From Clostridiales bacterium (GTDB lineage: Bacteria; Bacillota; Clostridia; Lachnospirales; Lachnospiraceae): a stretch of 64,000 nucleotides of DNA. How positions within the stretch are numbered: position 1 is the first letter of the stretch; each line of letters begins with the position of its first letter. A model generated the notes under the pieces. The model was not told where the DNA came from, made no database searches, and saw only the letters and a program-made list of their open reading frames with translations. This document shows positions 5,307-56,352 of the stretch, one piece after another. The stretch covers positions 1-64,000 of the forward strand of contig JAQXIP010000104.1 in assembly GCA_029007845.1 (NCBI GenBank), written 5' to 3'. The translations under genes and the position numbers were made by a program.

Positions 5307-5520
5307 GAAACTTCGCACATGTGAATCAGGCGGTATGCCGGGACGTGCAGGGGATGCGATGTATTATGAAATACTCGCTTTCGCTAGTTGAACACGTAAC
5401 GGTACTAAGGTTTTGTATGCGCAAAACCAAGTGCCGACGTGTTCAAAAAGTATTTCATAATACATCGCATCCCCTGCACGTCCCGGCATACCGCCCGATT
5501 CGCATGTGCGAAGTTTGAGT
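5307..5520. repeat. Palindromic repeat element, copy 2 (complete)
   Basis: gaaacttcgcacatgtgaatcaggcggtatgccgggacgtgcaggggatgcgatgtattatgaaatac ... reverse complement on the right side ... gcgaagtttgagt. Confidence 0.95.
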
Positions 5521-35946: not shown

Positions 35947-36163
35947 GTAATAGTTCAGCCGTAACGAGCGCAAAGCCGCCGGAAACATGCAGAATACCAG
36001 GGACCATGAAATACCCGCTTTTGCTTCATTGAACACGTAGCGGTACTAAGGTTTTGCAAAAAACCGCAAAACCAAGTGCCGGCGTGTTCAAAGGGATATT
36101 TCATGGTACCTGGTATTCTGCGTGCTTCCGGCGGCTGTGCGCTCGTTACGGCTGAACTGTTAC
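35947..36163. repeat. Palindromic repeat element, copy 3 (same core, unrelated arms)
   Basis: gtaatagttcagccgtaacgagcgcaaagccgccggaaacatgcagaataccagggaccatgaaatac ... gatatttcatggtacctggtattctgcgtgcttccggcggctgtgcgctcgttacggctgaactgttac. Confidence 0.95.
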
Positions 36164-52659: not shown

Positions 52660-52876
52660 ACTCAAACTTCCCACACCCGTATCAGACGGAATGCCTGGCG
52701 TACAGGGGAATGCGATGGATTATAAAATACCCGCTTCCGCTATTTGAACACGTAGCGGTACTAAGGTTTTGCTTGCGCAAAACCAAGTGCCGACGTGTTC
52801 AAAAAGTATTTTATAATCTATCGCATCCCCCTGTACGCCAGGCATTCCGTCTGATACGGGCGTGGGAAGTTTTAGT
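52660..52876. repeat. Palindromic repeat element, copy 4
   Basis: actcaaacttcccacacccgtatcagacggaatgcctggcgtacaggggaatgcgatggattataaaatac ... gtattttataatctatcgcatccccctgtacgccaggcattccgtctgatacgggcgtgggaagttttagt. Confidence 0.94.
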
Positions 52877-56189: not shown

Positions 56190-56352
56190 TGTTACAACGT
56201 TACAGTTTGAATCTTCGGATGGCGCAAACAGGCGATGTACAAGAGATGCCCTGTGTCATGAAATACCCGCTTTCGCTATTTGAACACGTAGCGGTACTAA
56301 GATTTTGTAACGTTGTAACAGAAATTTCATAATGTAACAGAAATTTCATAAT
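56190..56352. repeat. Palindromic repeat element, copy 5 (internal-deletion derivative) plus 19-bp tandem duplication
   Basis: TGTTACAACGTTAC (56190-56203) and GTAACGTTGTAACA (56307-56320) flank the left half arm and left half core; right half missing; gtaacagaaatttcataat x2 at 56315-56352. Confidence 0.85.

Follow-up and report, generated by a model that had tools for sequence, protein, structure and literature searches.

A palindrome family in the 64 kb window

The window, by which we mean the whole 64,000-nucleotide stretch of DNA that was analysed, contains five copies of a long palindrome (Table 1). Four are near-complete and one is a half copy. All are on the + strand of the window. Two arm subfamilies can be distinguished: the copies beginning at 1, 5307 and 52660 are of type B, and the copy at 35947, which has different arms, is of type A. 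The latter lies immediately upstream of tRNA-Val and tRNA-Met. The core pattern found no match in any of 100 shuffles of the window. The copy at 5307-5520 folds as one long 214-bp hairpin, with z of approximately -20 as DNA and -21 as RNA. A promoter and terminator scan of this copy alone identified neither inside the element.

The right half of the copy at 56190-56352 has been lost. Similarly, other half copies (L089, L096, L125 and L112) consist of the left half only. The half copies break off at the terminal loop or close to it, as though snapped at the hairpin tip.

Table 1. Palindrome copies in the window and the parts of the copy at 5307-5520.
Feature	Position	Strand	Details
Type B copy, left arm cut by contig start	1-170	+	core 24-100
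Full type B copy	5307-5520	+	
Full type A copy	35947-36163	+	ends GTAAT...GTTAC; core 36014-36095
Full type B copy	52660-52876	+	core 52730-52806
Half copy, left arm and left core half only	56190-56352	+	core part 56266-56325
Left arm	5307-5373	+	carries GGACG motif
Conserved asymmetric bulge	5374-5387	+	CTCGCTTTCGCTAG, with mini-hairpin GC-TTTC-GC
Stem P1, 5' side	5388-5397	+	TTGAACACGT; partner 5437-5446
Conserved 2-nt bulge	5398-5399	+	A-R
Stem P2, 5' side	5400-5405	+	CGGTAC; partner GTGCCG at 5431-5436
Internal loop	5406-5408	+	TAA; faces AA at 5429-5430
Terminal hairpin P3	5409-5428	+	GGTTTTG...GCAAAACC; six of six model pairs change on both sides across copies
Right arm	5451-5520	+	

An asymmetric core between variable arms

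Briefly, each element is ~150-290 bp long and consists of an asymmetric hairpin core (75-90 nt) between paired arms of 25-70 bp, the sequence of which varies by copy and species. The variable paired arm is outermost. Next is a bulge of the type C(A/G)CGCT(T/C)TCGCT, 12-14 nt long, with a mini-hairpin. Inside the bulge are P1 (~10 bp, ending ACGY/RCGT), a 2-base bulge (A-R) and P2 (CGGTAC/GTRCCG). Inside P2, a TAA (or ATAA) loop faces AA and encloses P3, which is variable in both sequence and length. Of 172 distinct copies, 46 have GGACG to the left (5') of the arm, usually at 30-39 nt from the core, and five have its reverse complement on the right side. The right arm is often followed by CTG at the 3' foot.

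The sequence-only reading had listed the same five copies, all of which were found at the positions it gave, and had correctly called 56190-56352 a deletion derivative. It had also described an unpaired bulge on the left strand, a 2-nt bulge and a TAA/AA internal loop. All three held and recur across a list of ~40 copies, drawn from different genomes, whose arms are unrelated. The first was refined. Since TT-AA pairs lengthen the GAACACGT stem proposed in that reading to TTGAACACGT/ACGTGTTCAA, the main unpaired bulge measures 12-14 nt and includes a mini-hairpin of 2 bp.

Base pairing in the core covaries

We assessed pairing using 78 distinct sequences. Standard pairs filled 90.5% of pair cells, compared with 31-42% when partners were slid. 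The covariation score was 0.414, against 0.136 in shuffles, and changes on both sides were evident at 18 of 24 pairs. Pairs of the mini-hairpin were 99.4% intact. These counts are biased in favour of the model, to which the alignment was fitted, and they include related sequences, which are not independent of one another.

Arms and terminal hairpins also differ between copies with compensating changes. Across all copies, arm mismatches comprised 328 GT and 284 AC. By zone, there were 73 GT and 85 AC in the inner arms, and 125 GT and 85 AC in the middle. Hence, the arms lack the large excess of G-U that RNA stems would be expected to show; A-C mismatches are about as frequent as G-T, which fits homogenisation of the arms at the level of the duplex. 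One P2 pair behaves differently, with T-G in 47 cases and C-A in none. Homogenisation of arms at the DNA level could conceivably add to the covariation signal. Hairpins can arise and be maintained by template switching between their arms (PMC8794818). If this mechanism acts here it would erase unselected bulges, and we infer that selection is required for the core to stay asymmetric.

The core is widespread in the Lachnospiraceae

The genome containing the window (2.28 Mb in 115 contigs, 88% complete) has ~99 core matches, 56 and 43 on the two strands, with up to three mismatches allowed. A reversed control pattern had no match in this genome. Of these matches, 13 begin no more than 110 bases from a contig start, and others are located at contig ends. 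Hence, the repeat breaks the assembly. At position ~3030 of L127, the left half of a copy is type A and the right half type B; this is either a recombinant or a contig-end assembly chimera. Head-to-tail arrays of two to four copies were also seen (L159:1501-1953, L360:2001-2571, L378 and L379; spacings of 187, 164, 231 and 222 bp).

Distribution was determined using a covariance model of the core. Of 397 genomes of the same family, 131 were positive for the core, corresponding to 117 of 334 genera, and E-values in other genera fell to about 1e-15 to 1e-19. All 53 positive genomes in a sample of the order, and all four positives in a phylum sample of 400, belong to that family. The names of matching records, among them Eisenbergiella tayi, Robinsoniella, Blautia, Butyrivibrio and [Clostridium] symbiosum, identify it as the Lachnospiraceae. 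A cultured strain, Eisenbergiella tayi DSM 26961, is among the carriers. Many other genomes have at least ten copies. This is a lower bound; at most 12 matches were scored per genome and many genomes of the family reached that ceiling.

Gene surroundings do not identify a partner protein

Copies are mostly intergenic and lie among ordinary genes. Their orientation relative to neighbouring genes is near random (++79, --57, -+46, +-39). In the G000 genome copies tend to be upstream of co-oriented genes (51 vs 22), a tendency not repeated in other sets. We rejected a strong gene-orientation bias, as the effect is weak overall. With crude gene calls, a mild bias to the G-rich strand was apparent (169 vs 105).

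Inspection of 1100 neighbouring ORFs revealed no recurrent transposase, and no other recurrent gene family except ordinary host genes. The Pfam model for the IS66 transposase detected nothing in the element's own genome, the assembly of which is 88% complete. The Y1 transposase (PF01797) was not detected in G000, G061, G117, G671 or G385, a set that takes in the element's own genome; all five have many copies or repeats of the palindrome family, although some assemblies are incomplete. Hence, no recognising or mobilising protein was identified using the IS66 profile in the own genome or the Y1 profile in five carriers.

The palindromes are mobile

Type A elements have the ends GTAACAGTTCAGCC...GGCTGAACTGTTAC and are flanked by 8-bp target duplications. 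At least seven of the eight flanking bases are duplicated in 13 of 23 copies; shuffling gave a mean of 0.56 and a maximum of 3. In another genome, L215 has type-A-like ends and the duplication GTAAAAAA. The G117 family has ends AGGCGATTGCG and target duplications of 9-11 bp.

Empty sites were also found. Two insertions in G230, of 183 bp at L372 and 290 bp at L371, are cleanly absent from the sister genome G455 or other congeners. Both arms arrive with the insertion. No target duplication was seen at either locus and, beyond the core and ~10 arm bases, neither insertion had a match in G230 or seven congeners. Older copies common to G230 and G455 mostly retain their inner arms. Hence, fast arm divergence does not explain the unmatched arms at L371 and L372. 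Lacking a target duplication and a parent copy with the same arms, these two insertions are not explained by plain copy-and-paste. Their arms may derive from an unsampled source or from new arm synthesis.

Two other origins were considered for these insertions. A pre-existing palindromic target was rejected, since both arms are missing from the empty sites. Copying of the arms from elsewhere in the genome was not supported; no source was found for L371 or L372. We conclude that the elements are dispersed, short, multicopy and mobile, and that they have no protein-coding capacity. Separately, element ends at L349-L356 (G061) and L363-L366 (G348) begin with TAA or TAG, which in several insertions is seemingly the stop codon of the upstream gene.

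Conservation of the core at orthologous sites

Three orthologous sites have core identities of 95-98%, compared with 47-78% in one adjoining flank. Of the six such sites examined, three (L370, L373 and L374) show clearly stronger conservation of the core than of noncoding flank. The L375/L454 pair shows the reverse. Here, the flanks are 90-99% identical and the core, with five compensated pairs, is 78% identical, so the core changed more than its flanks. One possibility is that the element was replaced in place. Because the whole element could have been replaced, the five compensating changes are not proof of slow co-evolution. The flank of L370 contains a different dispersed short palindromic repeat, of the GGACCACTAACCCCGTCCCCCAGGTCC type, with many matches in G455 and its relatives.

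The core in phage contigs

The core also occurs, with the same set of bulges, in five IMG/VR tailed-phage contigs of 62-66% GC (L302, L486, L487, L488 and L489). In L488 the core is between the genes for the terminase large subunit and the portal, and both neighbours were confirmed. In L302, L486 and L487 a similar protein is encoded downstream of the core. The location in L488 hints at a fixed position in these phages, which remains only a possibility. Further pattern matches in viral contigs L303, L304 and L306 were discarded; the fold is absent, and they are likely chance matches in one related sequence. The window element itself had no match when compared with plasmids and phages.

Comparison with known systems

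We found no credible match in Rfam. The whole window was searched at gathering thresholds, and relaxed thresholds gave only sub-threshold, chance-like matches. The resemblance to structured RNAs in Rfam is that of a covarying hairpin with conserved unpaired nucleotides. No description of the palindrome family was found in the literature searched, mostly without subscription journals or supplementary candidate-RNA lists (e.g. PMC8040213).

Like the bacterial MITEs QMITE2, RUP and ERIC (PMC10969869), the palindromes are small, non-coding, mostly intergenic and form a hairpin that is stable when single-stranded. Amplified families also share with MITEs their terminal repeats and target duplications. 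However, members of a MITE family normally share one set of terminal repeats around a variable middle. In the Lachnospiraceae palindromes it is the middle that is conserved family-wide, whereas arms and ends change from genome to genome and even among copies.

REPs, and palindromes tagged with GTAG or CGTC (PMC3733652), are likewise dispersed extragenic palindromes with a short unpaired foot tag; the reverse complement of GGACG is CGTCC. REPs measure 20-40 bp and have stems of 5-13 bp, whereas the palindromes described here span 150-290 bp and contain a long bulged core. Hence, the REP/RAYT criterion of a 20-40 bp hairpin with a GTAG or CGTC tag is unmet. The text of PMC3733652 does not mention Clostridi, Firmicutes or Lachnospiraceae.

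IS66 family elements have ends starting GTAA and duplicate 8 bp of target. Type A ends also start GTAA, with 8 bp duplicated, but the ends of other subfamilies differ and their duplications are 9-11 bp. The description "IS-derived MITE" is thus partly true of the outermost ends of subfamily A, which resemble an IS66-type element.

Interpretation

On balance, we lean towards the view that these are MITE-like palindromes, found across the Lachnospiraceae, with a core that is recognised as a folded single strand. The recogniser and the function of the core are inferred. In this scheme, amplified families would move in trans via their outer terminal repeats, by the action of a DDE-type transposase; this is inferred from the terminal repeats and duplications. 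The core would be kept because a protein recognises the folded single strand, either DNA during replication or transposition, or an RNA copy. Arm symmetry would be maintained by template-switch repair of DNA, which would also erase bulges not under selection. Both of the latter steps are also inferences.

Much of this had been anticipated. The sequence-only reading argued that conserved bulges between varying arms indicate a recognised structure and not a terminator, which is supported by occurrence in 117 genera and by covarying pairs. Its suggestion of a non-autonomous element mobilised in trans is supported by target duplications, empty sites and the absence of coding capacity or a linked gene. 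It recognised no named family, consistent with our Rfam and literature searches. The observation that would have refuted it, core bulges not conserved outside the window, was looked for and did not occur. It left open a structured RNA or a single-stranded DNA hairpin, and our evidence does not separate the two.

The palindromes appear to be an undescribed and widespread repeat class in a dominant family of gut and rumen bacteria. They break metagenome assemblies and insert beside genes. It is unusual for a bulged core to be conserved while its arms change freely; in ordinary MITEs the ends are what is retained, and in REPs a short stem. A bolder reading, which we consider possible, is that only the asymmetric core is inherited. 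Each insertion would then gain unrelated palindromic arms, by fold-back synthesis or from an unsampled source. The core would be the true genetic unit, with terminal-repeat families being secondary MITE amplifications of single insertions. Recent insertions without parental arms make the origin of such long palindromes testable.

Alternative explanations

The strongest rival to a MITE-like element with a recognised core is a structured non-coding RNA, trans-acting or involved in mRNA processing, that is spread by transposition and has its core kept by host selection on the RNA. We consider this unlikely. In its favour are the strong covariation, the RNA-like asymmetry of one P2 pair (47 T-G, no C-A), core identity of 95-98% beside one flank at 47-78% at three orthologous sites, and the location of the core in phage contigs, close to the terminase gene and, in L488, flanked by the terminase and portal genes. 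Against it, orientation to neighbouring genes is near random, the inner arms have no G-U excess (73 GT vs 85 AC) and no promoter or terminator was found inside the 5307 copy, the only one scanned.

It is very doubtful that the palindromes are ordinary MITEs, with a core that has no role and is conserved by common descent alone. This explanation fits the terminal repeats of amplified families and their 8-bp duplications. However, one core occurs with unrelated arms in 117 genera, all six modelled P3 pairs show compensating changes, and the bulges persist though the arms stay symmetric.

There is even less to recommend a giant REP-like hairpin, with foot tag and bulged stem, cut in trans by a Y1 HUH transposase. 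The GGACG foot tag, the CTG at the 3' foot, insertions without target duplication and the mild G-rich-strand bias (169 vs 105) would agree with this. Conversely, PF01797 was undetected in five carrier genomes and type A has 8-bp duplications.

Finally, the idea that arms are captured phage or plasmid sequence, as in an RNAi- or CRISPR-like memory, draws on the arms of new copies being unique in the genome and genus sample, but is all but ruled out because arms matched none of 50,697 phage records (INPHARED) and arm GC content tracks that of the host locus (r = 0.49).
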